Assembly (NCBI RefSeq): GCF_000378125.1
Contig: NZ_KB899243.1
Coordinates: 310,001 to 374,000, forward strand
Reading direction: 5' to 3'
Origin: Rudaea cellulosilytica DSM 22992
GTDB lineage: Bacteria > Pseudomonadota > Gammaproteobacteria > Xanthomonadales > Rhodanobacteraceae
DNA: 64,000 nt
Below the pieces are notes generated by a model. The model was given only the letters and a program-made list of their open reading frames with translations. It did not search any database and was not told the DNA's origin. Shown here piece by piece: positions 23,976 through 41,987 of the stretch. How positions within the stretch are numbered: the first letter of the stretch is position 1; the number at the start of each line of letters is the position of its first letter. The translations under genes were made by a program, and so were the position numbers.

Positions 23976-23988
23976 GTATGCGGACTCC

Positions 23989-25548: not shown

Positions 25549-26828
25549 GCGTTCTCCCACTCCTGCACCGACTGCTCGCCGGCGAGCATATCCTCGAAAG
25601 TCTGACGCCGTCGCACCACGGCATATCGGCCGCGGTCGAGCAGCACCTCGGCGGCGAGCGGCCGCGAATTGTAGTTCGACGCCATCGACGCGCCGTAGGC
25701 GCCGGTGGTTCGGATCATCAGCAGGTCGCCGGCTTCGCAGCGCGGCAGTTCACGATCGACGGCGAAGGCGTCGCCTGTCTCGCAGACCGGTCCGACGATA
25801 TCGTAGGTTTGCGCGGGTCGCGGCTCCCGCGTCACCGGTACGATCTCATGCCAGGCATCGTACAGGCTCGGTCGCAGCAGTTCGGTCATGGCCGCGTCGG
25901 TCACGAGGAAACAGCGCTGCCGGCCCTGCTTCACGCGAATCACACGCGTCAGCAATGCCCCAGCCTCGGCCACGAGCCAGCGCCCCGGTTCGAGCAGGAT
26001 GCGGCCATCGAAGCCGGTCAGCGCGTGACGAATGGCGGCGACATAGTCCTCGATCGCAATCGGCCGGTCGCGATCGGCGCGATAACACACGCCGAGACCG
26101 CCGCCGACATCGATGCTGTTGATCGCGTGACCGGCGCCAATGAGTTCCCGCCAGAAATCGGCCACGCGTTGCAGTGCGATGCGAATCGGATCGAGATCGA
26201 GCATCTGCGAACCGATATGCACGTGCAGACCGTCGAGACGCACATGCGTGAGCTGTGCACTGGCGGCGAACCAACGGCGCGCCTCGTCGATGCCGACGCC
26301 GAACTTGTTCTCCGATTTGCCGGTGGAAATCTTGGCGTGGGTCAGCGCGTCGACATCGGGATTGACGCGCACCGCGGCACGCGCGATCACGCCCCGCTCC
26401 GCCGCCAACCGCTGCAGAAGATGCAGTTCGTCCTCGGACTCCACATTGAAGCGGGCGACGCCGACGGCCAGCGCCTCGACGATTTCGTCGGCGCTCTTGC
26501 CGACGCCGGAAAACACGATGCGTTGCGCCGGAATGCCGGCGCGCAGGCTACGCCGCATTTCGCCAGCCGAAACGATGTCGGCGCCGAACCCGGCTTGCGC
26601 CATCAACTGCAGGATCGCGACGTTGCTGTTGGCTTTGGCTGCGTAGCAGACCAGCGCATCGAGCCCGCGCAGGGCGGTCTGCAATGCGCCGATGCGTTGC
26701 CGGATCGACGATGCGGAATAGACATGGCACGGCGTTCCAAGCTTTTGCGCCAAGCTCGGCAGGTCGACGCCGTCCCAGCAGACGTCGATGGCGCGTGGGG
26801 ATTCGATGGTGGTCGACATACGGGTCAT
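25545..26828 (-). CDS. LysA-type PLP decarboxylase (diaminopimelate decarboxylase family)
   Basis: A 427-residue fold-type III PLP decarboxylase. PLP lysine K65 is in CYAAKANSN. The glycine-rich phosphate loop is SIDVGGGLG, the active-site cysteine C349 is in GPVCETGD, and the tyrosine Y378 is in GAYGASMASNYNSRP. These match diaminopimelate decarboxylase, which turns meso-DAP into L-lysine at the D-centre. What is odd is the place: it sits in a D-glutamate operon, 55 bases after dgcA and overlapping a secreted hydrolase gene. It may use DAP salvaged from cell-wall peptides, or be the ordinary lysine biosynthesis gene. The start at 26828 has an alternative at 26819; neither has a clear ribosome-binding site. 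Confidence 0.85.
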   Translation of the reverse strand: MTRMSTTIESPRAIDVCWDGVDLPSLAQKLGTPCHVYSASSIRQRIGALQTALRGLDALVCYAAKANSNVAILQLMAQAGFGADIVSAGEMRRSLRAGIPAQRIVFSGVGKSADEIVEALAVGVARFNVESEDELHLLQRLAAERGVIARAAVRVNPDVDALTHAKISTGKSENKFGVGIDEARRWFAASAQLTHVRLDGLHVHIGSQMLDLDPIRIALQRVADFWRELIGAGHAINSIDVGGGLGVCYRADRDRPIAIEDYVAAIRHALTGFDGRILLEPGRWLVAEAGALLTRVIRVKQGRQRCFLVTDAAMTELLRPSLYDAWHEIVPVTREPRPAQTYDIVGPVCETGDAFAVDRELPRCEAGDLLMIRTTGAYGASMASNYNSRPLAAEVLLDRGRYAVVRRRQTFEDMLAGEQSVQEWENA

Positions 26829-26883: not shown

Positions 26884-27870
26884 TCATCCGCCCCAGAAAC
26901 CGGGCGAAGTTGGCATCAGCATGCCTCCCTGCAGGCGGACGCCATCGGGATAATCGTTCGCGAGCCAGAGCGGCCCGTCGAGGTCGATGAATTCTGCTTC
27001 GCGCGCGATTTCCAGCGCCGGCGCAATGCCCAGCGACGAGCAGACCATGCAGCCGACCATGACGATGAAACCTTCGGCGCGTGCCGCGCGCAGCAAGCGC
27101 CAGGCTTCGGTCAGGCCGCCGGTCTTGTCGAGCTTGATGTTGATCGCCTGATAGCGGCCGAGCAACGAGGACAGGTCCGACGAGGTGTGGCAGGACTCGT
27201 CGGCACAGATTGGAATGCGGCTGACAAAACCCCGTAGCGCTTCGTCCGCATCGGCCGGCAGCGGCTGTTCGAGCAGGTCGACTTTGAGGCGCACCAGCGC
27301 GTCTTGCGTCTCGCGCAGAATGTCGATCGTCCAGCTTTCGTTCGGATCGACGATGAGCCGCGCTGCGGGCGCCGCGCTGCGCACCGCTTCGATGCGCGCG
27401 ATCGGATCCTCGGCATCGACCTTGATCTTGATCAGTCCGGCATCGGCGATACTCGCCGCTGCCTTCGCCATCGCCTGCGGCGTATCGATGACGACCGTTA
27501 TCGCGGTCTCGAGCGGTCGATGCGGCGGCCGCGCCAGTTGACTATGCACAGGCACGCGCGTGAGCGTCGACTCGAGATCCCACAGCGCCGCGTCGAGCGC
27601 ATTGCGTGCGGCACCGGCGCCGAGTCGCGCCTGCAATTCGTCGCGGCCCATGCCCGCGGCAAGCTCGTCGCGCAGTGACTCGACTTGCGCGATCACCGCA
27701 GCAACCGATTCGCCATAGCGCGCATACGGAACCGATTCGCCGCGACCGACGCAGCCGGCCTGTTCGAGCTCGACCGTGACCACGTCCGCCGCGGTCTTCA
27801 CGCCGCGCGAAATGCCGAACGGCGAGTGCAGCGGAAAGCTGCGCGGCTGGACGCTCAGCCTGCGCAGCAT
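26884..27870 (-). CDS. dgcA: Enolase-superfamily epimerase, probable N-acetyl-D-glutamate racemase DgcA
   Basis: A 328-residue enzyme of the mandelate-racemase/dipeptide-epimerase branch of the enolase superfamily. Catalytic KxK is K148-I-K150. Metal ligands are D175 (in VDPNESW), E201 (in LLEQPL) and D224 (in CADESCH). The second catalytic lysine is in INIKLDKTGG (K246 or K249). Relatives include L-Ala-D/L-Glu epimerases, but adjacency to a DUF1611 gene and a LysR gene matches the DgcN-DgcA-DgcR module, where DgcA racemises N-acetyl-D-glutamate to the L form. The ATG lies inside dgcN (16-base overlap). The same frame stays open upstream antiparallel to nothing real: it is the shadow of dgcN. 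Confidence 0.83.
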   Translation of the reverse strand: MLRRLSVQPRSFPLHSPFGISRGVKTAADVVTVELEQAGCVGRGESVPYARYGESVAAVIAQVESLRDELAAGMGRDELQARLGAGAARNALDAALWDLESTLTRVPVHSQLARPPHRPLETAITVVIDTPQAMAKAAASIADAGLIKIKVDAEDPIARIEAVRSAAPAARLIVDPNESWTIDILRETQDALVRLKVDLLEQPLPADADEALRGFVSRIPICADESCHTSSDLSSLLGRYQAINIKLDKTGGLTEAWRLLRAARAEGFIVMVGCMVCSSLGIAPALEIAREAEFIDLDGPLWLANDYPDGVRLQGGMLMPTSPGFWGG

Positions 27871-28898
27871 GAAAGCAGATGGTCGACGATCGCTTCTACG
27901 CCCATGCTGACCGGGTCCTGGCACGGCAGGCCGAGCCGGTCGCCGATTTCTCGACACATCGCGGCGGCTTCCGCGGCGCGAAGATTGGACGTGTTGAGCG
28001 CGACGCCGACGGCCTTGACCGCAGGATTGGTCAGGCGCGCGGCGGTGAGGTTCGCTTCCAGGCAAAGCTTGAGTTCGGGAATCGGATAGTGCGGCAGCCC
28101 GCGCATGTGCTTGCGCGTGGGTTCGTGGCAGAGCACGAGCGCATCGGCTTGCGCGCCATGCAGCAGGCCGAGCGACACGCCGGCATACGAGGGATGGAAC
28201 AGCGAGCCCTGGCCCTCGATCAGATCCCAACCGCCGTCGTCGCGCGCCGGCGAAATCTGCTCGACCGAGCCGGAGATGAAATCGGCAATCACGGCATCGA
28301 CCGGCACGCCGTCGCCAGCGATGAAAATCCCGGTCTGCCCGGTCGCGCGGAAATCCGCGACAAGGCCGCGCTTGTGCAGGCTGCGCTCGAGCGCGAGCGC
28401 GGTATACATTTTCCCGACCGAACAATCCGTACCGACCGTCAGCAGGCGGCGGCCGGCGCGCTTCCTGCCGTTGCCGACGGGGATGCGGCCCTTCGGTTCG
28501 CGCGCATCGAACAGCACGCGGCCATTGCGCTCGGCCGCGGCGACGATGTCCGCGTTGTCGCGCAACTTCTCGTGCAGGCCGGCAATCACGTTGAGGCCGG
28601 CGTCGAGTGCGGCGATGATGTCGGCGACGGTTTCCTTCGCCATCACGCCACCCGCGTTGGCGGTACCGACCACCATCGTGTTCGCGCCGGCGGCCCTGGC
28701 CTGCGCCGGCGTCATGTCGGGCAGATCGAGCGTCTGGTTGCAGTCTGCACGCCGGTTCTGTCCGATGCACCAATCGGGCCGCCAATACGCCAATCCGCGC
28801 GCGGTCTTGATGGCCAGATCGTCGGCCCGACCACCCAGATACAGCAGGTACGGCGGTCCCCAACGGTTGCTGCCGGTCGCTTCGCCGTGGCTGCTCAT
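27855..28898 (-). CDS. dgcN: DUF1611 family, probable D-glutamate N-acetyltransferase DgcN
   Basis: A 347-residue cytoplasmic protein of the DUF1611 family. A P-loop-like motif GTDCSVGK is at residues 146-153, and the region IEGQGSLFHPSYAGVS and the segment VKAVGVALNTS are family landmarks. DgcN is described as acetylating D-glutamate with acetyl-CoA so that DgcA can racemise the product. The gene is the first of the minus-strand operon and overlaps dgcA. AGGAG sits about 10 bases before the ATG at 28898, and a promoter of the shared three-copy class lies at 28944-29009. The frame runs on to 29069, but that would cross the promoter. Confidence 0.83.
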   Translation of the reverse strand: MSSHGEATGSNRWGPPYLLYLGGRADDLAIKTARGLAYWRPDWCIGQNRRADCNQTLDLPDMTPAQARAAGANTMVVGTANAGGVMAKETVADIIAALDAGLNVIAGLHEKLRDNADIVAAAERNGRVLFDAREPKGRIPVGNGRKRAGRRLLTVGTDCSVGKMYTALALERSLHKRGLVADFRATGQTGIFIAGDGVPVDAVIADFISGSVEQISPARDDGGWDLIEGQGSLFHPSYAGVSLGLLHGAQADALVLCHEPTRKHMRGLPHYPIPELKLCLEANLTAARLTNPAVKAVGVALNTSNLRAAEAAAMCREIGDRLGLPCQDPVSMGVEAIVDHLLSCCAG

Positions 28899-28943: not shown

Positions 28944-29009
28944 AGCATAACCAGCGGCCAGCGTCGGCCACCAATGAAAAGACCGGTACGTGGCATAACT
29001 TTGGGTTGT
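28944..29009 (-). promoter_or_regulatory. Predicted DgcR-type promoter of dgcN (site a)
   Basis: In the sense of dgcN: operator ACAACCCAAAGTTAT (29009-28995), 10 bases, conserved block GGTCTTTTCATTGGTGGC (28984-28967) with -35-like TTGGTG, 19 bases, then -10-like TATGCT (28949-28944). The predicted start of transcription is about 40 bases before dgcN. A further GGTTAT lies at 29010-29015 and ATAACC at 28947-28952. The site lies between the divergent dgcN and dgcR genes, so the regulator could also control itself. Confidence 0.7.
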
Positions 29010-29067
29010 GGTTATCCTAGTTCGGCGCCACCAGCCCCACCGGACAAACAGACGGATCGAAATCCTC

Positions 29068-29970
29068 ATGCACCTGCGCTACATCGAACTCTTTCATGCC
29101 GTGCTGACCACCGGCAGCATCACTGCCGCGGCGAAGCTGCTGAATATCTCGCAGCCGGCGGCGAGCAAAGCGTTGCAGCACGCCGAGGACCGGCTCGGCT
29201 TCGCCCTGTTCAGCCGTGTGCGCGGGCGCCTGCAGGCGACGCCGCAGGCGCTGCTGATGCGCGACCGCATCGAGAAGATCATCCAGGACGTGCACGATCT
29301 GGAACGCCTGACCAAGAACATGGGTCAGCCGGGCAATTGCCCGCTGCGCGTCACCTGCACGCCGACGCTGGCGCTGACTCTGCTTGCCGGCGCGACGACG
29401 CTGCTGCGCAAGGCCATTCCCGATGTGATGGCCGAACTGTCCACGCAGCACTCGGCAGCGATGTGCGAATCGCTGACCCTGCGCGACACCGACATCGGCC
29501 TCACCTTGCAGGACACCGGCCATCAAAACCTGCGCCAGCGCGTGCTCTGCCGTGGCCAGGTCATGGTAATCGCGCCGCCGGGCTGGTGGCCGGAGAAGGA
29601 GTTGACGCAACCGCTGCCGATCGAGGCGCTGGCCAACCAGCCGATGATCGGCATCACCGTGCGCGACGCGCTGGGCCGCGCGCTGCACGGCCATCTCGCC
29701 CAGGTTTCTCCTGCGCCGCGCATCGCGGTCTCGGTACAGACGTACCAGTTGGCGCATGCGCTCGTCGCCAAGGGCGAGGGCCTCGCGGTGGTCGATCCGT
29801 TCACGGCCCGCTGCGGCGACGCGAACAGCGTGCAGATGCGTCCGCTGAAACCGCATCTCGAAGTCGTGCTGTATGCGATGCATCGGCCCGACAATCCGCT
29901 CGATCCGGTGCAGAAGCGATTCCTCGATCTGGTGCGGCAACTGGCGCAGAAGATGCTCGCGCAGCGCTAG
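29068..29970 (+). CDS. dgcR: LysR-family regulator, probable DgcR
   Basis: A 300-residue LysR-type transcription factor. The N-terminal winged helix-turn-helix spans about residues 1-60 (FHAVLTTGSITAAAKLLNISQPAASKALQHAEDRLG) and an effector-binding domain follows from about residue 90. It is divergent from dgcN with 169 bases between the two starts, the classic LysR layout, and it matches the DgcR-DgcN-DgcA module described for D-glutamate use. The likely inducer is D-glutamate or N-acetylated glutamate. The frame is open 60 bases further upstream, but the ATG at 29068 begins the family's usual MxLRxIELFHAV. Confidence 0.88.
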   Translation: MHLRYIELFHAVLTTGSITAAAKLLNISQPAASKALQHAEDRLGFALFSRVRGRLQATPQALLMRDRIEKIIQDVHDLERLTKNMGQPGNCPLRVTCTPTLALTLLAGATTLLRKAIPDVMAELSTQHSAAMCESLTLRDTDIGLTLQDTGHQNLRQRVLCRGQVMVIAPPGWWPEKELTQPLPIEALANQPMIGITVRDALGRALHGHLAQVSPAPRIAVSVQTYQLAHALVAKGEGLAVVDPFTARCGDANSVQMRPLKPHLEVVLYAMHRPDNPLDPVQKRFLDLVRQLAQKMLAQR

Positions 29971-30055
29971 CCGCGAAACGCAGCTGCGGCTCGGCATCGT
30001 CGACGACGATTCTCGGCAGTTGAGAACGTCGAAGCCCCGCCCATCCAGGCCGCCC

Positions 30056-30120
30056 ACAACCTCCGGTTATGCAAAGCCACGACCTTTTCATTGGTGGCTC
30101 GCTACCGCCGCACCTATGCT
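30056..30120 (+). promoter_or_regulatory. Predicted DgcR-type promoter of ggt-gltS-dadA (site b)
   Basis: In the sense of ggt: operator ACAACCTCCGGTTAT (30056-30070), 10 bases, block GACCTTTTCATTGGTGGC (30081-30098) containing TTGGTG, 18 bases after it, then TATGCT (30115-30120). The layout equals site (a), although this one points the other way along the chromosome and lies after the dgcR stop. Transcription would begin near 30127, giving a leader of about 137 bases. Confidence 0.7.
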
Positions 30121-30263
30121 TTGCCCGCGCGATGCGATTGCATTTGCCGGACGACTGCAGCAACTTCCACGGCACATCCCTTGCTCGTCCCGCCACCGCG
30201 CTGTTTGAGGCGCGTTCGTCCATGGAAAAGTCCGATACTGGCAATACCCGCTGGAGCAAGAAC

Positions 30264-32000
30264 ATGAGCAAGCGCATCGCGCCGCACTCGCGCACGAAAT
30301 TCCCCGGCCCATCGTGGCCGCATCGATTCGCCTTGGCCGCGGGCCTCATTGCGCTCACGGCAACGGCGTTCGCCCGGGATGCGGGAACGACGACGAAGAC
30401 AGCGGCGATCGCGAGCGCGAACGCGCACGCCACCGAAGCCGGCTTCAGCGTGCTCGCCGAAGGCGGCAACGCGGTCGACGCGGCGGTGGCTGTCGCCACG
30501 TCACTATCGGTGGTGCAGCCGGAAGCGTCCGGCATCGGCGGCGGCTTCCTCGCGCTGATCCACGACGCGGCGAGTGGCAAGGACACGTTCATCGACTCGC
30601 GCGAGATGGCACCGGCGGCGGTGAAATCCGCCGACTATCTCAACGCGGACGGCACGCCCAATCGCGACACCTCGCTCAACGGTCCGTTGGCTGCAGGCAT
30701 TCCCGGATCGCCCGCCGGTCTTGCCTACATCGCGCAGAAGTTCGGCAAGCTGCCGCTGACGAAATCGGTGCAGCCCGCGATTATGCTGGCGGAAAAAGGC
30801 TTCCATCCGAGCGAGGCGATGGCACGATCGATCGCCTACCGCGCCGACGTATTGCATCGCTACGCCGCGTCGACGGCCAAGTTCTTCCCGAACGGCAAGG
30901 CGCCGACGACGAACGACCTCTTCCGCGACGAGGCGCAGGCACGCACGTTGAAAGCATTCGCGGAAAAAGGCGCCGACGGTTTCTACAAGGGCGAAGTCGC
31001 CGAGGAAATGGTCGCGGCGGTGAAGGCGGCCGGCGGCACGTGGACGACGGCCGACCTCGCGAGCTACCGGACCCGGGAACGCGCGCCGATCGAGCTGACC
31101 TACAACGGCTACAGAATCATCACCGCACCACCGGTGTCGTCGGGCGGCGTCGTCGTCGGCGAAGTGCTGAACATCCTCGCCGGCATCGATTTGAAGAGCC
31201 TCGATCAAGCGCATCGCATCCATTACGAAGTCGAAGCGATGCGTCGTGCGTATCGCGACCACAACGAATATCTCGGCGATCCGGATTTCGTGAAGATGCC
31301 GATGGACATGCTGCTCTCGCCCTACTACGCGGACGGACTGCGCCAGAGCATCCTGCCCGAGCAGGCGACGAAATCCGAATGGCTGCCGGCGGTGCACGCC
31401 AAGGAGCCGGGCATGCACACCACGCATTTCTCGATCATCGACAAGGACGGCAACATGGTGTCGATGACCTGCACGGTCAACACCACGCTCGGCTCTGCCT
31501 TCGTCGCCGGCAAGAGCGGCGTGCTGCTCAACAACGAGATGGACGACTTCGCCCTGGTCGCCGGCCAGCCGAATGCGTTCGGCCTGATCGGCGGCGAAGC
31601 CAACGCGCCGGTCGCGGGCAAGCGCATGCTCTCGTCGATGACGCCGAGCATCATCATCGGCAAAGATCGCCTCGCCGTCATCGGCTCGCCCGGCGGCTCG
31701 ACGATCATGACTCAGGTGCTCGAAGGCATGCTCGCGTTCATGGACGGCAAGAGCGCGTCCGAGATCACCGCGCAGAAGCGCTTCCATCACCAATACCTGC
31801 CCGACACGGTCGAGATCGAACCGGGCAGCCTGCCCGCGGACGTGGTCGCAAAGCTCAAAGCGATGGGCCACGACGTGCGCGAGCGCGAGCCGTGGGGCAA
31901 TATGAATGTCGTGGTCTGGGACAAGACGACGAACACGAAGACGGCGGCGAGCGATCCGCGCAGCAAGAGCGGCCTCGGCAAAGTCCAAGCGATGCGCTGA
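30264..32000 (+). CDS. ggt: Gamma-glutamyltranspeptidase
   Basis: A 578-residue periplasmic N-terminal nucleophile hydrolase that removes or transfers gamma-glutamyl groups. A signal peptide with an extended charged n-region runs to about residue 38 (TATAFA). The autoprocessing nucleophile is T387 in HTTHFSI, which becomes the N-terminus of the small subunit. The oxyanion GSPGGS motif is in [15 protein letters not shown] lies 8 bases before the chosen ATG 30264; in-frame ATG 30222 is possible. In this context it may free D- or L-glutamate from gamma-glutamyl peptides, such as gamma-D-Glu links in cell-wall or polyglutamate material. GltS, 6 bases downstream, would import the product. Confidence 0.94.
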
Positions 32001-32006
32001 CAGCGC

Positions 32007-33212
32007 GTGCTGACCCTCGATCCGATCCAGACCCTTGCGGCCGGCGGCCTCTGCCTGCTCGCCGGCTACGCCATCCGGCGGCGCTTGCCGCTGCTGGCGC
32101 GGTTCAACATTCCTGCCGCGGTGATCGGCGGCCTGGTCGTCGCGCTCGCGTTGCTGTTGTGCCGGCATTGGGATGTCGTGCCGGTGCAGTTCGATGCGTC
32201 GCTGTCGAAGCCATTGATGATCGCGTTCTTCGCCAGCGTCGGCTTCAACGCGAGCGTGAAACTGCTCCGGGTCAGCGGCCCGCAAGTCGCGCTGTTGCTC
32301 ACTCTGGCGACGTTTCTCGCCATCGTGCAGGATCTCATCGGCATCGGCGTGGCCAAGGCATTCGGCCTGCATCCGTTATTCGGCATCGCCGCCGGATCGT
32401 CGACGCTCGCCGGCGGACCGGCCACCGGGCTCGCGTTCGCACCGCTGCTCGAACAGGCCGGCCTCGCCGGCGCGGCGAGCATCGCGATGGCCTCGGCGAT
32501 GGCCGGCATCGTGCTGGGCTCGATCCTCGGCGCACCGCTGGCGACGATGCTGATCGAGCGCCACCGGCTCGTGCGCGAATCCTCCGAGGTCGATGCGTCC
32601 AGCGCACAGATTATCTCCGCAACGACGGTGGATGGCGGCAGCGAAACGGAGCGGATCCAGCGCACGCTCAAGCACATCGTCCTGCTTCTGGTCGCGATGG
32701 GCGTGGGCGCATGGATCAGCGACGGCGTGCACGCGCTCGGCGTGACCCTGCCGAGCTACACCGGCGCGATGCTCGTCGGCGCGCTGATTCGCAACCTCGA
32801 CGATGGGTTCGGCTGGTTCCGTTTGTCGATGCCGAGCATCGAAGGCATCGGCAGCATCTGCCTCTCGTTGTTCATCTCGGTTGCGCTGATGGACCTGCAC
32901 CTGTGGGAACTCGCCGGCATGGCCACGCCGCTGCTCGTCGATCTCGCCTTGCAGACGATCATCGTCGTCGCGTTCTGCTGCTGGCCGCTGTTGCGCCTGA
33001 TGGGTCGCGACTACGACGCGGCCGTCATCACCGGCGGCTTCGCCGGCTTCATGCTCGGCATCACCGCCAACGCGATGGCGGTGATGGACTCGCTGGTCGA
33101 ACGCTTCGGGCCCGCACCGCGTGCCTTCCTCGTCGCGCCGCTGGTCGGCGCGTTCCTGATCGACTTCACCAATGCCATCGTGATCACGTTCTTCATCAAC
33201 GGCTGGAAGTGA
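32007..33212 (+). CDS. gltS: Sodium/glutamate symporter GltS
   Basis: A 401-residue inner-membrane protein of the glutamate:Na+ symporter (ESS) family, with about ten hydrophobic helices in two inverted halves. Family features include the N-terminal [11 protein letters not shown] and the re-entrant glycine-rich loops [12 protein letters not shown] and the second-half [18 protein letters not shown]. GltS imports glutamate, and the Escherichia coli protein handles D-glutamate as well. Translation starts at GTG 32007, six bases after ggt. The stop overlaps the dadA start by one base. The neighbouring ggt and dadA genes support a role in uptake of glutamate freed outside the cell. Confidence 0.93.
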
Positions 33213-34465
33213 TGCGCGTGCTCGTCGCGGGCAGTGGCGTCATCGGCGTGAGCAGCGCTTGGTATCTGACGCGCGCCGGTTTCGAAGTGACCGTCGTGGA
33301 GCGCCAGCCCGCGCCCGCGCACGAGACCAGCTTCGCCAACGCCGGCCAGATCTCGCCGGGTTACGCCTCGCCCTGGGCCGCGCCCGGCGTGCCATTGAAA
33401 GCAATGAAGTGGCTGTTCTCCAAGGATGCGCCGCTGGTGATCCAGCCGGGCCTGGATCCGCGTCAATACCTGTGGCTGCTGCAAATGCTGCGCAATTGCA
33501 CGACGCAGCGTTACGCGATCAACAAGGCACGCATGCTGCGCCTGGCCGAATACAGCCGCGATTGCCTCGACGAGTTGCGTGCGGAAACCGGCATAACCTA
33601 CGAAGGCCAGCAACTCGGCACCACGCAGTTGTTCCGCACGCAAGCGCAGCTCGACGATGCAAACAGGGATATTGCGGTGCTCGAGCAATATGGCGTGCCA
33701 TACGAAGTACTCGATCGCGCCGGTATCGTGAAGGTGGAGCCGGCGCTGGCCGGCGTGGTCGACCGCCTGGCAGGCGCACTGCGCCTGCCGCGCGACCAGA
33801 CCGGCGATTGCGCGCTGTTCACGCAGCGGCTGGCCGAGCGTGCGCAAGCGGCAGGCGTGGAGTTCCGCTACAACGCCACGGTCGAAGCGCTCGAAGCGTC
33901 GGCAACCCGAATTACCGGCATACGCATCGATGGCAAAACCGAGAAGGCCGATCGCTACGTGCTCGCGCTCGGCAGTTACACGCCGCAACTACTTGCCGCG
34001 GTCGGTGTCCGCCTGCCGGTCTACCCGCTGAAAGGTTATTCGCTGACGCTGCCGATCACCGATCCGGCGATGGCGCCCGCATCGACCGTGCTCGATGAAA
34101 ACCACAAGGTCGCCGTGACCCGGCTCGAGCAACGCATCCGTATCGGCGGCATCGCCGAAGTGTGCGGCTACAACCTGTCGCTGCCGCCGCGGCGCCGCGC
34201 GACACTGGAAAAAGTCGTCGCCGATTTGTACCCGCACGGAGGCGATCTGACCCGAGCCGAATTCTGGACGGGCTTGCGCCCGGCGACGCCGGACGGCACG
34301 CCGGTGGTCGGTGCTGCCGGCTTCGACAACTTGTATCTCAACACCGGCCACGGCACGCTCGGCTGGACGATGGCCTGCGGATCGGGACGCTATCTCGCCG
34401 ATCTGATCGCCGGCGCGACGCCGCAGATCAGCAGCGAAGGGCTGGATATTTCCCGCTATGGCTGA
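33212..34465 (+). CDS. D-amino acid dehydrogenase (DadA-type, FAD)
   Basis: A 417-residue flavoprotein that oxidises D-amino acids to 2-oxo acids and passes electrons to the respiratory chain at the inner face of the membrane. The N-terminal Rossmann FAD motif [13 protein letters not shown] is at residues 7-19. The DadA-typical [22 protein letters not shown] (about 36-57) and the C-terminal [15 protein letters not shown] are complete. Length fits DadA. It overlaps gltS by one base and precedes the third serine hydrolase by 3 bases. DadA prefers D-Ala; with the transaminase at 35717-36580 it could drain D-glutamate amino groups through D-alanine. Confidence 0.93.
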
Positions 34466-34468
34466 ACC

Positions 34469-35689
34469 ATGAACATCGGACGCGTGCTGTCGATCTGTGG
34501 CCTATCCTGCCTGCTGCTCGCCGCCGGCGCGGCCCGCGCGGACGGCCCTGTTGCCACGGTGCGCGTCGCCTTCGATCGCGACGGCATCACTTCCGTGCGG
34601 ACCGAGGGCTTCGCCGACAAGGACGCCGCGCGCGCGATCACCGCCAACGACCCTGTGCGCGTCGCCTCGATTTCCAAGCTGGTCACCATGATCGGCGTGA
34701 TGCGTCTGGTCGAGATCGGCAAACTCGAACTGGACGCCGATGTTTCCAGGTATCTGGGATTCAAGCTGCGCAATCCCGCGTTTCCGGATGCGCCGATCAG
34801 CTTGCGCATGCTCGTGTCGCACCGCTCCAGCCTCAGCGATGCCGCGGGCTACTGGCAGACGCCGCTCGACGGCCGCCTGCACGACACGCTGGCCAATCCT
34901 CGCGCGTGGGACGGCGAGCACGCGCCGGGTACCTTTTTCCGCTACACCAACCTTAATTTTCCGGTCGTGGCGCAAACGATGGAGCGCGTCACCGGCGAGC
35001 GCTTCGATCGCCTCATGCAACGCCTCGTGCTCAAGCCGCTCGGCACCGACGCCTGTTTCGGCTGGGCCGCCTGCGACGAGGCGACCGTCGCGCGCGCAGT
35101 GACGCTATACGACGCCGGCGGCAAACCGCTCGTGGACGACAATCACGGCCGCAGGCCGGACTGCACGGTGCGGCCTGCGCGCGATGGCAGTTGCGACTTG
35201 TCGCGCTATCGCCCGGGCGACAACGGCGCGCTGTTCGGGCCGCAGGGCGGCCTGCGCATTTCCGGCGTCGATCTCGCGCGCATCGGCATGATGCTGCTCG
35301 GCGACGGCACGCTCGCCCTCAACGGCGCACGGCTGCTGACGCGCGAATCCGCGCGCGCGATGGCCAAGCCGCTATGGCAATACGACGGCCGCAACGGGCT
35401 GACCTTCGAGGAGGATAGCGACGACCATCAGCCGGGGTTCTTCTGCCGCTGGGGCATGGGCATGCAGATTCTCGCCACGCATGCCGAGGGTTGCCGCGAG
35501 GATCCGTTTGGCGACGGTGTTGCGCGCATCGGCCATTCCGGCACCGCCTATGGCGTACAGGCGGGCATTTGGCTGGATCGCGAGCGCGGCAGCGGCGTCG
35601 TGTGGTTCGCGACGGGCATGCCCGAAGAACGAACGGGCGGACGCTCGGCGTTCAGCGCACTCGAAGAAAAGCTCGCGAGCGGAAAGTGA
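34469..35689 (+). CDS. Secreted beta-lactamase-fold serine hydrolase
   Basis: A 406-residue exported S12-like enzyme, the third of the island. The signal peptide covers about residues 1-24 (ARA-DG). Motifs are S67-I-S-K70, YTN in RYTNLNFP, and HSG in IGHSGTAYG. It is the last gene of the ggt-gltS-dadA operon, 3 bases after dadA. The sequence around the active site is of the D-aminopeptidase/esterase kind rather than a true beta-lactamase. Cysteines in FGWAACDE, DCTV, GSCD, FFCR and EGCRED suggest disulfides in the periplasm. The exact substrate cannot be read from the sequence. Confidence 0.86.
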   Translation: MNIGRVLSICGLSCLLLAAGAARADGPVATVRVAFDRDGITSVRTEGFADKDAARAITANDPVRVASISKLVTMIGVMRLVEIGKLELDADVSRYLGFKLRNPAFPDAPISLRMLVSHRSSLSDAAGYWQTPLDGRLHDTLANPRAWDGEHAPGTFFRYTNLNFPVVAQTMERVTGERFDRLMQRLVLKPLGTDACFGWAACDEATVARAVTLYDAGGKPLVDDNHGRRPDCTVRPARDGSCDLSRYRPGDNGALFGPQGGLRISGVDLARIGMMLLGDGTLALNGARLLTRESARAMAKPLWQYDGRNGLTFEEDSDDHQPGFFCRWGMGMQILATHAEGCREDPFGDGVARIGHSGTAYGVQAGIWLDRERGSGVVWFATGMPEERTGGRSAFSALEEKLASGK

Positions 35690-35716
35690 TCCGCCGACAT
35701 CGATCGCGATTGCGGA

Positions 35717-36580
35717 TCAATCGGCTTCGCGTTGCTTGAGCGCCTGGAACTCGTCGAACAGGCGGCGCCAGAGCGGACCGGGCTCGCCCTCACCCACTGC
35801 TTGGCTGTCGAGCGAGGTGACCGGCAAGGCCTCGCGCGTCGAACTCGCGATCCAGATTTCATCGGCCGTGAGCAGTTCGTCGCGGCGCACTTCGCGCACC
35901 TCAAGCGGCAGCTTCAGCGCATCGAGCACGTCGGCGACGACGAGGCGCGTGATGCTCGGCAAGCGCTCGTGGCTCGCGGGCGGCGTAGCGACGCGTCCGT
36001 CCCTGACCACGAACACGGCGCTCGAACTGCCTTCGGCGAGGCGCTCGCCGCGCACAAGGATCGCCTCGTCGGCACCGCGCCGCCTGGCTTCGATCTTCAG
36101 CATCACCGGACCGACCAAAGCGACGGACTTGATGTCGCAACGCTGCCAGCGGATGTCTTCGAGCGTGGCTGCCGAGATACCGCGCTGAAGCAGTTCGGGT
36201 TTCGGCGGCGCGAGCCGAAAGCAGAAACCGAACACCGTCGGCTGCATGCCCCGCTCGGGCAGGAAATCGCGCCCCTTGCCGGCACCGCGCGAGATTTCGA
36301 GATAGATGCCCATGTCACCGCCGCCATTGGCGTCGATCAGCTCATGCACGAGTTCGGTCCAGCGCGCATGCGAATGCGGATTGGCTATTTCGAGCGCGGC
36401 CAGGCCGTCCTGCAAACGATCGAAGTGCGCGTCGAGTCGGAACGGTCTGCCGGCATATACCGGCACGACTTCGTAGATGCCGTCGCCGAACAGGAAGCCG
36501 CGATCGAGTGGCGAGATGCGCGCATCGATCAGCGGAACAATGACGCCGTTGAGCAGGGAATTGGGGAGTGCGTCGGCCAT
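35717..36580 (-). CDS. D-amino acid transaminase (class IV aminotransferase)
   Basis: A 287-residue fold-type IV PLP aminotransferase. The PLP lysine is K151 in CDIKSVAL, where D-amino acid transaminases usually have DIKS. The N-terminal RGFLFGDGIYEVVPVY and the C-terminal EGSSSAVFVV and IWIASSTREALPV (phosphate binding) are family landmarks. The enzyme exchanges amino groups between D-alanine and 2-oxoglutarate to form D-glutamate, and also runs in reverse. It converges with the ggt operon, ending 28 bases from the last gene of that operon, and lies after the TPR-sulfotransferase gene on the minus strand. Confidence 0.9.
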   Translation of the reverse strand: MADALPNSLLNGVIVPLIDARISPLDRGFLFGDGIYEVVPVYAGRPFRLDAHFDRLQDGLAALEIANPHSHARWTELVHELIDANGGGDMGIYLEISRGAGKGRDFLPERGMQPTVFGFCFRLAPPKPELLQRGISAATLEDIRWQRCDIKSVALVGPVMLKIEARRRGADEAILVRGERLAEGSSSAVFVVRDGRVATPPASHERLPSITRLVVADVLDALKLPLEVREVRRDELLTADEIWIASSTREALPVTSLDSQAVGEGEPGPLWRRLFDEFQALKQREAD

Positions 36581-36625
36581 GTCGGTGCTACGGTTCCGGA
36601 GAATCGATGAAATCGGGATTTGCGT

Positions 36626-38239
36626 TCATTCCAGCGCGACCCCAGCGGCCTGCAGGCGTCTGCGCAACGGATCGAGCTTGTCACCGTAGCGCGCGCTGCG
36701 CGCAGTGTCGCGGCGCAACGGCTGGCGCACCTGCGCGGCGCTCGGGGCGCTGAGCACGGCGCGTTCGGTCTTGTGGAATTCGAGACAGGCGCGGTCGAAC
36801 GGCAGGTCGCAGAAATCGAGCAGGCGGCGAATCTCGGCGTCCGGATCGGCCTGCAGGTTTTCGTACTCGAGATCAAGCACACGGTCGGGATACTGCTCGT
36901 GCCAGAAGCGCGTGAGGCGCAGGAAGTCGATGCAGTAGTCGGCCAACTCATCGAGATCGCAGGCAAACGCGCTGCGTTCGCTGAAAAGTTGGCGGAAGCA
37001 CGCCAGGCAGGTCTCCACCGGATCGCGCCGGATGATCACCACACGCGCCGCCGGCAGCATCGCCAATGCCGGCCCGACGAGGTACCAGCTCAGCAGGCTC
37101 TTGTCGGTGAAGCGTGGCTTGGTTTCGCGCCAACGCGCGGTGCGCGCGAGGTATTCGCGACCGAGACGCTGCCAGTCCTGCGCCGTGGCATCGGCTGCCC
37201 AAAGCGGATAGGCCGAATTGCGACGCCGGGTTTCCGCATCGATGATTTCAGTAAGGTCCTTGATCTCGTTGGCGCCTTCGACCTGCGGATGCGAAGCGAG
37301 GATCTGTTCGACCAGGGTCGAACCGGAACGCGGAATGCTGACGATGAAGATGACCTCGCCGCCAAGCCGCTCGTCCAGCGGTGAGGGTGTTCCACTGGCG
37401 AACACGCGCTGGATCTCGTCCACGCGCTTGCGTTCACCCGCCGCATCCCACTTCACGCGCCGGCGCCGTGACGCGTTGGCGGTGCGGAACGCCTCGAAGG
37501 CTTGCGCATAATCGCCGCGACTTTCCAAGGCCTTCGCGTAGGTGAAGCCGAGCAATTCGCGGTCGCGTGGCGACAGGTTCGGGCGCGCCAAGGCGCTCTG
37601 CAGGGATGCGGCATCCGCGGCATCGAAGCGCAGCGTGTTGAGATTCGACAGGCCGAACCATCCTTCGGCGTTGCCGGGGTCGCGACGCAGCACTTCGCGA
37701 AAACCCGCGATCGCGGCATCGACCTCGCCGAGGCTCGCCTGCGCCTTGGCCAACGACAGTCGCGCGGAAACATGCGCAGGATCGAGTTCGAGCGCGCGGC
37801 GCAACGCGGCGACCGCATCGATGGTATGCACCTGCTGCACCAGCGCCTCGCCGAGATTGAACCAGGCCGATGCGGAACGCGGCGCGAGCTCGCAGGCATG
37901 GCGCAGATGCTTCACCGCATCGGTGGTTTCGCCGTGTTCGTGCAGCGCGATCCCGAGGCAGACGTGGATGTCGGCGTCGTCGGGATGCGCGGCCAGCACG
38001 CGCCGGAAGCAATCGATCGCGCGCGCGTGATCACCGAGGCGCTGCACCGCCATACCGAGCAGGCGCGTGGCGCTCAAATCGTTCGGCGCCAGCGCGAGCA
38101 CGTTCGACAACGAGTGCTCGGCGGCGGCGAAGTCGCGGCGCTCCCATTCCTCGCGTGCGCGCGCGAACATGCGCGCTGCCGTGCGCGAAAGCGGAGGTTG
38201 TGATGTTTCCTGTGCAGGTCGTTCTGGCTGAAGCGTCAT
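36626..38239 (-). CDS. TPR-repeat sulfotransferase
   Basis: A 537-residue protein combining an N-terminal tetratricopeptide array (about residues 15-250, roughly six repeats with A/G/P pattern such as ALHEHGETTDAVKHLRHACEL) with a C-terminal sulfotransferase domain. The domain shows the 5'-phosphosulfate loop SIPRSGSTLVEQIL (about residue 285) and the 3'-phosphate element RVVIIRRDPVETCLACFRQLF. It should move sulfate from PAPS to a protein, glycan or lipid; the acceptor is unknown. I chose ATG 38239; a TTG at 38257 in the same frame is possible. The gene lies after the TonB receptor, beyond a terminator. Confidence 0.88.
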   Translation of the reverse strand: MTLQPERPAQETSQPPLSRTAARMFARAREEWERRDFAAAEHSLSNVLALAPNDLSATRLLGMAVQRLGDHARAIDCFRRVLAAHPDDADIHVCLGIALHEHGETTDAVKHLRHACELAPRSASAWFNLGEALVQQVHTIDAVAALRRALELDPAHVSARLSLAKAQASLGEVDAAIAGFREVLRRDPGNAEGWFGLSNLNTLRFDAADAASLQSALARPNLSPRDRELLGFTYAKALESRGDYAQAFEAFRTANASRRRRVKWDAAGERKRVDEIQRVFASGTPSPLDERLGGEVIFIVSIPRSGSTLVEQILASHPQVEGANEIKDLTEIIDAETRRRNSAYPLWAADATAQDWQRLGREYLARTARWRETKPRFTDKSLLSWYLVGPALAMLPAARVVIIRRDPVETCLACFRQLFSERSAFACDLDELADYCIDFLRLTRFWHEQYPDRVLDLEYENLQADPDAEIRRLLDFCDLPFDRACLEFHKTERAVLSAPSAAQVRQPLRRDTARSARYGDKLDPLRRRLQAAGVALE

Positions 38240-38316
38240 GTCATTGCCGGCTGCCAATGCCTGTCACGCGAAGGGACAGGCTGCGATGCAGGCTACACAA
38301 GACACCCGAAGCGCGC

Positions 38317-38346
38317 AAAAAAATGCCGGGCAGATCCCTGCCCGGC
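38317..38346 (-). terminator. Rho-independent terminator of the TonB receptor gene
   Basis: On the minus strand GCCGGGCAG and CTGCCCGGC form a perfect 9-bp stem with a short loop, followed by ATTTTTTT. It lies 20 bases after the receptor stop codon. Confidence 0.88.
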
Positions 38347-38365
38347 GCTGGAGAACTCGCACACT

Positions 38366-41300
38366 TCAGAAGTCGTAGGCCACGGAGAAGCGGACATAAC
38401 GGGGCGCTGTCGAATCGAGGATCCTGCCATAGTCGACCCTCGGATTGGACGTTGAACGGAAACTGTCGCCGTAGTACAGCGCCACCTGGTTGTTGAACAC
38501 GTTGAAGATGCCCAGGTTGAAGTCGAGCTTGTGATCGGCCCAGTCCGGCCGGTAGTCCACGCTGAGATTGAGCTGATGATTCCACGGCAGACGGCCGAGC
38601 GAACCCGGCGGCACCGGCTTGCCGCCGCACCAGTAATAGGTGCTGGAACCGTGCAAGGCAACTTGATCGACGCCGTAACGGCCACGGCACATGCGCGGCG
38701 AGCCGGAGGCGATGTACAGGTTGCCGCCGAGCGTCCATTCCGAAGTGAGCGCATACGCGCCGAAGACCTTGAGCTGGTGCTTGCGGTCGTTCGGCTGGAC
38801 ACCATTGGAGTGCTCCATTCTTTCCGGGAAATCCCAAGCGGTGGTAATCGATTCGTAGGACCCGCCCTGCGCGGAATACGTGCTCACCGGCCCTTCCGTG
38901 TTGCCCCAGGTGCGCGAGAACACGTAGTCGATCTTGGCGAACCATTTGCTGTCCCAGGCGTGTTCCAGCGACAGGTCGATCGAGTAGTAGCGGCGCTTCG
39001 GGCCTTCGATGAAGCCCTGGTCCGCCTTGGTGAACTTCACCGGCACGAGGCTGCCGTCCGGCGACTTCATCAACAGATTGTTGGTTTCGCCCGGATTGAC
39101 CAGAACCAGGCTCTGCGCGTATTGGTCGCAGTCGGCCGGCGTCATCCAGGCATAGCCCTGCGCGCGCCCGGCCGCGCATTCATTCTGGATGGCGTCGTAG
39201 TCGTCGATGATGCGGTTCATGCGCTGGTACGTACCTGTCGCACCGAATGTCCAGTTCGTGCCAAGCATGTCGAACTGCTGCTGCATGCCGAAGACGAAGT
39301 TGTCGGAAAACTCGGCCTTGATGTTCTGCGCGGCGGAGATGCGTGGGTCCTTGGCCTGGCCGTATTCGCTGTCGATCGACACGCCCGTCGTCGGATTCTG
39401 CGGCAGCGGCGTGAATCCGATCGGTTCGCCGGTGGTCGGATTGACGCCGGTGTAGGTGCCGTAAACGCCGGCGTTCGTCACCGGTGCGGCGATCGACAGC
39501 GCTACATTCGCCGGCAGCGCCAGATAGTAACGGCCGGCATTGCCGAATACTTTCAAACTGGAATCGCCGTGCACGTCCCAGCTGAAGCCGATGCGCGGCG
39601 CCCATTGCGGCTTGGTCTCACGGATATATGCCTCGCCTGACGCATCGTAGTTCACGAACGCGTCGTCGCGCAGGCCGAGGTTCAGCAACAGATTCGGCGT
39701 CACCTGCCAGTTGTCCATAATGTATGCGGCACGCTGCGAGACGCGCACCGAGGCGGCCGAAATGTCGACGTGTTTTTGCACGTAGTAGCAATGCACCTTG
39801 CCGGTGGAGTCGGGATGGCATTGCGTCGACGGTGCGACATACGGCGGCACGCTGGGATCGACGCCGAATACCGGCTGACCGGGGGTGCTTGTGCCGTAGA
39901 TCCATTGATAGCCGGTTCCCGGGTTCACCGAGCCGTCGTTCAGATCCTGGGAATTGATGTTGTCGATGCCGAGCTGGAAGTCGTGATCGCCCCGCTTCCA
40001 GTCCACACTCAAACGATAATTCGTCACCGTTTCGCGATGATTGGGATCTGCGATCGACGAATTGCTCTGCGAGTTGATGATGCCGCCGGGCGGAACGAAC
40101 GCGGGATCCTGGTTGGATGCGCTGGCGACGTGCGGCAACGACGGATTGAAGCCGGGATAGGCAGGTTGCTGCGTGTAGTACTCGCCGTGCATCTTGCCGA
40201 ACGTCGCGTTCAGGGTCAGGTTGTCGGTGAGGTAGGATGTGTAATTCGCCACCCACATGCGGAACGCGGTCTTGTTGGTCTGGTCGAGGCCGGTAAAATC
40301 GCCGCGCTGCTGGGTGGCATAGTCGAAGTCGTAGATCGTTCCCCAGGTCTTGTGCTCGTTCTGCAGGCCGGTGAGGCTGAAGACGTTGGCATCGTTGATG
40401 TTCCAGTTGACCTTGGCGTAGACCTTCGGATCGTGCACGGTCACGTCTTCGCTGTTGGCGCTGCTGAAGGCTCCGGTGGTCCGATAATGGGTGTTGTCCT
40501 GTTCGACACCAAGAAAGAAGAACAACCTGTCCTGGATGATCGGACCGCTGACATAGGCGTCGTAGATCGTTTCGCTGTGATTGTTGTTCTTGCGGAAGAC
40601 AGCTATATCGCCGGGCCTGCTACCCTGCTCCGTGATCAGCGGGTTGGCGTAGTAATAATTGATCGGATCGTCGCGCAGGCTACCCGGCTGCCACAGCGCG
40701 CGTGCGCCGAAATGCCAATCGTTGGAACCGCTCTTGCCGATCTGGTTGATCACGCCGCCGATCGAGCGGCCATAGCGAGCGTCATAGCCGCTGATGGAAG
40801 TCTGCTGCTGCTCGATGGCGCCGTAGGGCAGCGAGACGCCACCCATGTTGTTGAGCAGCTCCGTGGTGTTCATGCCGTCCACGTAGTAGGCATTCTCGGC
40901 CGCGGAGGCTCCGCCGAACACCAATGTCCCGGTACCCAGCGGGCCGGTGCCCAATTCGGCCGAAGCCATGTTGACGCCCGGCGCGAGCATGGCGACGTCC
41001 TCGGCGCTGCGCGCGATCGGCAACTGCTGCAACTGCTTCGCCGTGATCGTCGTCACCTGGTTGGTGGTGGACACGTCGATCGTCGCCGCCTGCCCCGTGA
41101 CCTTGATCGTATTGAGGGTCTCGGCCGACGTGGCCGCTGCCTTCGTCACGAAGTCCACCGCGACCGCACCCGCCGCCACCGGGCTGACATCCTTGCGCGA
41201 GTCTACGACCTTGCCGTCGCGCAGCAGCGTAACGGTGTAGCTGCCGACCGGCAGTGTGACCGAGTACTTGCCGTTCGCATCCACCTCCACGGTGCGATTG

Positions 41301-41488
41301 AAACCCGCACCGCCGGTGATCTGGATCGTTTCGCCGGCCGCCACCGGAACCGTGCCGTAGATGGTGCCGTTGGTCGCCTGCGCCCACACCGTATTGGCGA
41401 GGCTGAAAGTGACCGCTCCGATGGCGAGTGCCAGCGCCTTGCGCCGGAAGATGTTCTTGCGATGCAACGTACGCGACTTGCCCTTCAT
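38366..41488 (-). CDS. Oar-type TonB-dependent receptor with N-terminal beta-sandwich
   Basis: A 1040-residue outer-membrane receptor for TonB-dependent uptake of a large substrate. After a signal peptide (to about residue 37, NTVWA) comes a carboxypeptidase-regulatory-like beta-sandwich (about 40-125, GTIYGTVPVAAGETIQITGG). The plug domain follows (about 140-250, ITAKQLQQLPIARSAEDVAMLAPGVN) and then a long barrel ending in aromatic YVRFSVAYDF. This architecture is that of Oar/OmpA-like receptors, often linked to peptide or protein substrates. The start is ATG 41488 with GGGGAG about 8 bases upstream; the open frame beyond it is not coding. The promoter at 41629-41694 is of the dgc class, suggesting the substrate belongs to the same regulon. 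Confidence 0.93.
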   Translation of the reverse strand: MKGKSRTLHRKNIFRRKALALAIGAVTFSLANTVWAQATNGTIYGTVPVAAGETIQITGGAGFNRTVEVDANGKYSVTLPVGSYTVTLLRDGKVVDSRKDVSPVAAGAVAVDFVTKAAATSAETLNTIKVTGQAATIDVSTTNQVTTITAKQLQQLPIARSAEDVAMLAPGVNMASAELGTGPLGTGTLVFGGASAAENAYYVDGMNTTELLNNMGGVSLPYGAIEQQQTSISGYDARYGRSIGGVINQIGKSGSNDWHFGARALWQPGSLRDDPINYYYANPLITEQGSRPGDIAVFRKNNNHSETIYDAYVSGPIIQDRLFFFLGVEQDNTHYRTTGAFSSANSEDVTVHDPKVYAKVNWNINDANVFSLTGLQNEHKTWGTIYDFDYATQQRGDFTGLDQTNKTAFRMWVANYTSYLTDNLTLNATFGKMHGEYYTQQPAYPGFNPSLPHVASASNQDPAFVPPGGIINSQSNSSIADPNHRETVTNYRLSVDWKRGDHDFQLGIDNINSQDLNDGSVNPGTGYQWIYGTSTPGQPVFGVDPSVPPYVAPSTQCHPDSTGKVHCYYVQKHVDISAASVRVSQRAAYIMDNWQVTPNLLLNLGLRDDAFVNYDASGEAYIRETKPQWAPRIGFSWDVHGDSSLKVFGNAGRYYLALPANVALSIAAPVTNAGVYGTYTGVNPTTGEPIGFTPLPQNPTTGVSIDSEYGQAKDPRISAAQNIKAEFSDNFVFGMQQQFDMLGTNWTFGATGTYQRMNRIIDDYDAIQNECAAGRAQGYAWMTPADCDQYAQSLVLVNPGETNNLLMKSPDGSLVPVKFTKADQGFIEGPKRRYYSIDLSLEHAWDSKWFAKIDYVFSRTWGNTEGPVSTYSAQGGSYESITTAWDFPERMEHSNGVQPNDRKHQLKVFGAYALTSEWTLGGNLYIASGSPRMCRGRYGVDQVALHGSSTYYWCGGKPVPPGSLGRLPWNHQLNLSVDYRPDWADHKLDFNLGIFNVFNNQVALYYGDSFRSTSNPRVDYGRILDSTAPRYVRFSVAYDF

Positions 41489-41987
41489 GATTCTTACTCC
41501 CCAATCGTGGGAACTCAGGTAATGTTGTCTCGACGCAGCGATCGCTTGCTGCCGCATCTTGTTGTCGGCATTCCGCGCAGCCCCATGGTCATGACCACTG
41601 ACCAGCCGCATTGCGCGGTACGCGTTCGAGCATACTTATCCCGCCGTGGCAACCACCAATGAAAAGACCAGCACCCCGCATAGCTGTGGGTTATGGTTTT
41701 TGCAGACCGCCGCGGCGCCGCGCGCCCTCGGAAACCGCGGTCTGACGCGAAAGCGCGGGCGTCGGCAAGAGCGCCCCCAACAGACGCCGGGCGGGCTGGA
41801 GTCGCCTCTACGCGCGCGGAGCGTCCATGTACGATGCGCGCCGATGACTGTGTCCGCGCTGCGCGAACTGCCAAGCAAATCCGTGCTCGCCGCCGAGACT
41901 GCAGTCTTTAGTCTTTCCCGGAGCGCAGAAATTCGCGCCTGGCGTCGCCGCCAAACGGGAAAACCATCGAATCATTTGGAGGGCGGA
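41489..41987. other. Divergent intergenic region between TonB receptor and M61 peptidase
   Basis: These 499 bases hold the dgc-class promoter of the receptor gene at 41629-41694. Between 41695 and 41987 I see no gene and no other convincing promoter. A stretch around 41700-41830 is GC-rich and low in structure. Confidence 0.55.
41629..41694 (-). promoter_or_regulatory. Predicted DgcR-type promoter of the TonB receptor (site c)
   Basis: In the sense of the receptor gene: operator ATAACCCACAGCTAT (41694-41680), 10 bases, block GGTCTTTTCATTGGTGGT (41669-41652) containing TTGGTG, 19 bases, then TATGCT (41634-41629). It has the same spacing and order as sites (a) and (b), 12 kb away from them. 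The leader to the receptor ATG would be about 135 bases. Confidence 0.7.

Follow-up and report, generated by a model that had tools for sequence, protein, structure and literature searches.

A composite LysR-type operator predicted at three promoters of a D-glutamate gene cluster in Rudaea cellulosilytica

Composite sites and gene runs in the window

We analysed a 64,000-nucleotide stretch of Rudaea cellulosilytica DSM 22992 (contig NZ_KB899243.1, positions 310,001 to 374,000; hereafter the window), a member of the Rhodanobacteraceae, that encodes a DgcR-like LysR-type regulator amid genes for D-glutamate metabolism. Three copies of a composite element stand at promoters here. Each consists, in order, of a 19-bp interrupted palindrome (CCAYAACCNNNRGYTATGC), 12 bp, the box TTTTCATTGG, 20–21 bp and the hexamer TATGCT. 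A first-pass annotation of the same DNA had described three such elements, and their existence, order, spacing and strands are confirmed, the exact form occurring nowhere else in the genome. It had drawn the palindrome as 15 bp; this too is borne out and can be extended, since the CCA before it and the GC behind it are also conserved in relatives. Judged from sequence, one LysR-type regulator very probably binds the element at all three promoters.

The rarity of the element is readily appreciated from pattern counts. A search for RGYTATGC-N8-GRYCTTTTCATTGGTGGY with up to three mismatches gave three matches in the window, each of them exact, whereas 100 shuffles gave none. The exact 14-mer CTTTTCATTGGTGG and the exact palindrome CCAYAACCNNNRGYTATG are each confined to the three sites in the whole genome (4,343,639 bases, 6 contigs). 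When two mismatches are allowed, either part alone falls to background: the 14-mer has 9 places versus 14 for its reversed pattern, and the palindrome 22 versus 42.

As annotated, the sites precede dgcN, ggt-gltS-dadA and a gene for a TonB-dependent receptor (Table 1). Strand and spacing suggest that the three same-strand runs are operons. The regulator is assigned to the LysR type by matches to HTH_1 (PF00126, 62 bits) and LysR_substrate (PF03466, 93 bits), and a search of solved structures gave AdmX and BenM as the nearest. The adjacent dgcN and dgcA both exceed curated cut-offs, which identifies a DgcN–DgcA pathway. The dgcA product also passes the model for L-Ala-D/L-Glu epimerase (PRK15129, 350.8 bits versus a cut-off of 343) and may thus act on cell-wall dipeptides. 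The lysA gene of the dgcN run is additional to another copy above cut-off (325 bits), which sits in a 927-aa frame at a different place in the genome and is probably of the fused aspartate kinase/decarboxylase type.

We take the TonB receptor of the window to be Oar-like. A TPR-sulfotransferase gene comes next after the receptor gene, both in the window and in many regulon clusters mapped in relatives. Divergent from the receptor is an M61 peptidase gene (41646-43886, plus strand, true start later). An M61 or amino-acid permease gene often occupies this position in relatives, and the operator of the receptor might therefore work in both directions.

Table 1. Composite sites and genes of the three runs (window coordinates)
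Feature	Position	Strand	Remarks
Site 1, whole composite	28944-29011	-	dgcN promoter
Site 1, 19-bp interrupted palindrome	28993..29011	-	putative recognition site, centre about -65
Site 1, box TTTTCATTGG	28971..28980	-	putative activation site, about -43 to -34
Site 1, -10-like TATGCT	28944..28949	-	21 bp past box
Site 2, whole composite	30054-30120	+	ggt promoter
Site 2, 19-bp palindrome	30054..30072	+	putative recognition site
Site 2, box TTTTCATTGG	30085..30094	+	putative activation site
Site 2, -10-like TATGCT	30115..30120	+	20 bp past box
Site 3, whole composite	41629-41696	-	TonB-receptor promoter
Site 3, 19-bp palindrome	41678..41696	-	T-N11-A form
Site 3, box TTTTCATTGG	41656..41665	-	putative activation site
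Site 3, -10-like TATGCT	41629..41634	-	21 bp past box
dgcR-like LysR-type regulator	29068..29970	+	divergent from dgcN, between sites 1 and 2; likely binder
dgcN, D-glutamate N-acetyltransferase	27855..28898	-	opens the run behind site 1; NCBIfam NF041892 523 bits, cut-off 480
dgcA, N-acetyl-D-Glu racemase	26884..27870	-	NF042940 438.8 bits, cut-off 400
lysA, diaminopimelate decarboxylase	25545..26828	-	TIGR01048 473 bits, cut-off 297.9
PF00144 serine hydrolase	23989..25560	-	AmpH/D-aminopeptidase models match below cut-off
Second PF00144 hydrolase	22911..24128	-	D-aminopeptidase/AmpH models match below cut-off
DSD1/BhcC-type PLP aldolase (3-hydroxy-D-aspartate aldolase model)	21748..22902	-	NF045642 741 bits, cut-off 690; start approximate
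ggt, gamma-glutamyltransferase	30222..32000	+	first gene behind site 2; TIGR00066 433 bits, cut-off 357.85; start possibly 30264
gltS, sodium/glutamate symporter	32007..33212	+	TIGR00210 320.4 bits, cut-off 310.75
dadA-like D-amino-acid dehydrogenase	33212..34465	+	third in ggt run; PRK00711 686 bits, cut-off 383
PF00144 serine hydrolase	34469..35689	+	ends ggt run
TonB-dependent receptor	38366..41488	-	behind site 3; Plug and OMP_b-brl_4
TPR-sulfotransferase	36626..38257	-	next after TonB receptor
D-amino-acid transaminase-like (class IV aminotransferase)	35717..36580	-	third on strand; PF01063; TIGR01121 234 bits, below cut-off 277

The site and its targets in related genomes

The motif search in the genome and its relatives that the first-pass annotation had suggested came out in favour of its proposal: within the family the motif tracks the DgcR orthologue and is not scattered over unrelated genes. 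Among 147 family genomes the exact 14-mer box was found at 30 places in 20 genomes, versus 9 places for the reversed pattern. It lies within a composite in 16 of these genomes and outside any composite in four (G017, G021, G030 and G090), so that the box on its own has less specificity than the composite. The composite itself (YAACNNNNRGYTATG-N13-TTTTCATTGG, at most two mismatches) occurs at 108 places in 36 of the 147 genomes, and its reversed pattern at none. DgcR orthologues (E at most 1e-50) are present in 29 of the genomes and DgcN matches in 36, 26 of them over the curated cut-off. At one mismatch or fewer, a composite is found in 29/29 genomes with DgcR versus 1/118 without (Fisher p 7e-30, shared ancestry not corrected for), the DgcR genomes holding 2 to 8 such sites each. 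Eight genomes with a DgcN match and without DgcR (G016, G036, G076, G101, G102, G111, G122 and G142) have no site at this threshold.

Beyond the family, a site with at most one mismatch was found among 369 class genomes in the window's own genome alone; the reversed control gave one match. One other protein in these genomes reached an E below 1e-45 (35% identical), with at most six candidates scored per genome, which makes this a weak test of absence. A chance origin of the composites is rejected by the shuffles of the window together with the reversed-pattern controls in family and class genomes.

The genes behind the sites were surveyed at 103 sites in 31 genomes, five of the 108 places, each with two mismatches, being omitted (in G035, G050, G065, G091 and G063). 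The first gene was taken as the best-scoring match starting no more than 800 bases away. TonB receptors follow 47 sites (33 of the window's type, 10 and 4 of two others), dgcN follows 24 and gamma-glutamyltransferases of two types follow 15 (6 and 9). A D-aminoacylase-like amidohydrolase follows four sites and another amidohydrolase two; seven other genes occur once each, and four sites were assigned none, including two amidohydrolase sites at which the aligned start fell before the allowed range. Hence 90 of the 103 sites precede a TonB receptor, dgcN, a gamma-glutamyltransferase or a D-aminoacylase-like amidohydrolase, targets that are mostly non-homologous and related in function. The names D-aminoacylase-like and DmpA-type were given by eye; the scans returned Amidohydro_3 with PRK09061 below cut-off, and Peptidase_S58. 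A motif scattered across the genome was considered and rejected, given that exact box and palindrome share three genome places and that the targets are of a few related types.

Column by column, 99 sites with at most one mismatch were compared, a hundredth (L135, at a contig end) being too short. A TAY[GCT]CT hexamer, in columns outside the search pattern, stands behind the box in 87 of the 99 (21 bp away in 80 and 20 bp in 7), versus 1% in shuffles. Receptor sites mostly read CATAACC...AG.TATG and dgcN sites ACAAC...GTTATGCC. The flanks upstream of the palindrome hold 0.03–0.26 bit per column, and the gaps are conserved only in part, at their ends.

This anatomy resembles that of LysR-type activator promoters, in which a recognition site lies near -65 and an activation site near -35. 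With TATGCT taken as the -10, the palindrome here is a dyad centred at -65 and the box spans -43 to -34, positions computed from that of TATGCT. The activation site is usually the weaker half of LysR-type operators, whereas the box here looks no less conserved than the palindrome, an outcome that the search pattern itself favours.

The candidate regulator and its rivals

The exact composite was also found in 94 stretches of a genome-contig collection, and the following figures come from 80 of them. A DgcR homologue lies within 44 stretches, another regulon gene within 30 more and neither within six. Of these six, L211 and L233 are chance-like, L212 and L246 are ended by the contig and L199 by the stretch itself, its site being the same one that stands before a TonB receptor in L129; in L191 lies a homologue of c67, a gene outside the scans. 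Regulators 39–49% identical to that of the window are encoded at five of six Pseudomonas, one Solimonas, one of two Hydrocarboniphaga and one Aquitalea loci. No dgcN was seen in the stretches from these four genera, yet most of their sites still lie beside or near a homologue of this LysR regulator, an indication in favour of that protein over any other gene of the cluster.

Six Pseudomonas genomes carry a single site each (at most one mismatch), before a D-amino-acid dehydrogenase gene. Among 79 Pseudomonas genomes, 47 encode a regulator homologue at E at most 1e-45, with 66 matches in all; we compared the 30 of these matches that had loci. Twenty-four of the 30 loci adjoin a dguA-like dehydrogenase, and in all 24 a palindrome and a box stand the same distance apart as here, with scores of 18–22 out of 22. 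The other six loci lack this arrangement and score 13–15, and letter-shuffled loci reach at most 15. The contrast of 24/24 versus 0/6 gives a Fisher p of 1.7e-6, shared ancestry not corrected for. The six paralogous regulators have an LPAPTLSATLQ-like recognition helix instead of SQPAASK/SQPAVTK. The palindrome at the 24 loci is mostly CCATAACCTTTGTTTATRG, and the Pseudomonas regulators are 41–48% identical to that of the window. A viral scan found no relative.

From these comparisons we consider it highly probable that the DgcR-like regulator recognises each composite, a LysR promoter of the activator type, and switches all three gene runs. The 19-bp palindrome would be its recognition site and the box TTTTCATTGG the activation site, bringing a second dimer beside RNA polymerase; TATGCT would serve as the -10 box, with no good -35. 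On meeting its ligand, presumably D-glutamate or a peptide carrying it, the regulator would turn on the runs dgcN-dgcA-lysA-hydrolases, ggt-gltS-dadA-hydrolase and TonB receptor-sulfotransferase-D-amino-acid transaminase. Jointly these may provide for the uptake and dismantling of peptidoglycan stem peptides and D-amino acids. DgcR had been put forward in the first-pass annotation as the candidate, a proposal that the co-occurrence of site and orthologue in the family supports, as does the LysR gene found beside the sites as far as Pseudomonas.

Could something other than DgcR read the composite? The great rigidity of box and -10 would suit the promoter of an alternative sigma factor, and the sites of G128, a genome in which DgcR is not detectable, would suit this or some other, unseen regulator of the cluster. 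However, genomes that lack DgcR have almost no sites, and from Rhodanobacteraceae to Pseudomonas it is the LysR gene that stays beside the site; we regard this alternative as very unlikely. Nor do we see in the three sites the copies of a duplicated or mobile repeat, which their near-identical boxes inside 13 kb might suggest and which the annotation had already doubted. Flanks are unrelated, gaps are conserved partly and at their ends only, and the genes behind are mostly non-homologous, so a repeat is rejected as having next to no probability.

Several observations nonetheless weigh against assigning the composite to DgcR. The annotation had likened the palindrome to LysR operators, of the T-N11-A type in the third copy: this motif is literal there, as it had claimed, and not in sites 1 and 2, which have C for T. 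G128 (95% complete) has three exact sites with no detectable DgcR and no dgcN match, and G142 (89% complete) has one two-mismatch site with no detectable DgcR; at E 1e-5 nothing beyond 24–26% identity to DgcR was found in either, both assemblies being fragmentary. The TAY[GCT]CT hexamer is absent from the expected range in 12 of the 99 sites, and the position at -65 depends on TATGCT being the -10. In Pseudomonas the -10 differs from TATGCT and the box varies (TATTCATTGT in 15 of 24 loci, TATGCATTGT in 4 and other forms in 5). The search patterns were built from the sites with a fixed palindrome–box distance, so that conservation of columns and distance is partly selection, and the references of the first-gene survey were drawn partly from the same clusters.

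The system has known counterparts. A conserved 19-bp DguR operator is said to have been described for Pseudomonas aeruginosa dguRABC by He et al. in 2014. The palindrome here likewise measures 19 bp, and in both cases a LysR-type regulator of D-glutamate catabolism is divergent from its target. Palindrome and related box at the same spacing beside a homologous LysR gene, present at the 24 dguA-type loci and missing from the paralogues, place the site in the DguR operator type. The two systems differ in that the regulator here is divergent from dgcN, not from a dguA-type dehydrogenase, and in the number of sites, one per genome in the six Pseudomonas versus 2 to 8 in the 29 DgcR genomes of the family, before dgcN, ggt and receptors. 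For Pseudoalteromonas sp. CF6-2, the DgcN–DgcA–DgcR pathway was reportedly set out by Yu et al. in 2023; it is not known to include a regulon beyond dgcNA. The window resembles it in that dgcN and dgcA pass curated models and the regulator adjoins them. DguR is described as the LysR regulator of dguA in D-glutamate catabolism (PMC10926688), and passages of PMC6131576 cite the 2014 paper and hold nothing further on the operator. Pathways of D-glutamate containing dgcN are likewise described in PMC12363236 and PMC10845958. DguR itself is thus known; a multi-promoter regulon with outer-membrane receptors, as predicted here, would be the new part, and no published account of such a DgcR regulon was found in our searches of open-licence papers.

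Reach of the predicted regulon

The first-pass annotation had proposed a D-glutamate regulon. Judging from gene content, that scope may have to be widened. Stem peptides of peptidoglycan are made up of L-Ala, gamma-D-Glu, diaminopimelate and D-Ala, and the window encodes a plausible enzyme for each part except L-Ala, which inclines us towards scavenging of peptidoglycan peptides over D-glutamate alone. That the regulon would serve the scavenging of peptidoglycan peptides and D-amino acids, rather than D-glutamate alone, we hold to be about evenly balanced. In relatives, lysA lies in the stretches of 10 of the 31 site-bearing genomes, and in others dgcN is followed by gltS or a second ggt. Their clusters also contain genes for an AmpD-like amidase (4 genomes), S58 peptidases, amino-acid permeases and M61 peptidases.

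A narrower scope can be argued, in which DgcR is the regulator but its regulon handles free D-glutamate and related D-amino acids only, the cell-wall-like genes being passengers. The rank of dgcN as commonest non-receptor target fits this, as do the six Pseudomonas genomes with their single site before a D-amino-acid dehydrogenase gene, as in dguR-dguA, and the low counts of lysA and the AmpD-like amidase. Yet receptors and gamma-glutamyltransferases have sites of their own, the dgcN run of the window includes the extra lysA and PF00144 hydrolases, and on general grounds free glutamate should need no TonB receptor. We consider the narrower scope somewhat improbable.

Our tentative proposal, to which we give a little less than an even chance, is that a DguR-type regulator widened in Rhodanobacteraceae from a one-promoter switch for D-glutamate into a master switch of stem-peptide scavenging. 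Dedicated TonB receptors would import muropeptides, Ggt would cut the gamma-D-Glu bond and AmpH-, AmpD- and DmpA-like enzymes the remaining bonds. DgcNA, LysA, DadA and the D-amino-acid transaminase would then dispose of D-Glu, diaminopimelate and D-Ala. We know of no TonB receptor for cell-wall peptides, and a non-exhaustive literature search gave none; were the master-switch proposal true, those predicted here would be the first, as far as is known.

Whatever its scope, the composite provides a sharply defined, searchable operator, palindrome-N12-TTTTCATTGG-N20/21-TATGCT, for what would be one regulator in Rhodanobacteraceae and some other groups. With it comes a ready set of candidate genes for living on D-amino acids and dead cell walls, among them outer-membrane receptors and sulfotransferases lacking an assigned substrate. 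It would also bring the dgcN route and the dguA route of D-glutamate use under a single type of regulator.

Three minor observations concern related loci. A second DgcN-like gene (G000:C1:525508-526482, L182) scores 443 bits, below the cut-off of 480, and no composite was found in its 8-kb stretch. Four stretches (L176-L179, from G050, G035, G065 and G091) hold a TATAACYTNRGGTTATCG-like palindrome with TTTCATTGG beside another LysR gene, of which one representative was scanned. The element is similar in all four, differs from the composite by two mismatches and lacks TATGCT where it would be expected; it may reflect a related type of operator used by a different LysR regulator. Finally, composite-like sites with one and two mismatches, respectively, lie behind a hexosaminidase-like gene in L131 (6154-6191, minus strand; G118) and L140 (5326-5363, minus strand; G096), that of L131 before a glucokinase-like gene. 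The gene names at both loci were given by eye, and in that genus the sites may extend the regulon to cell-wall sugars.

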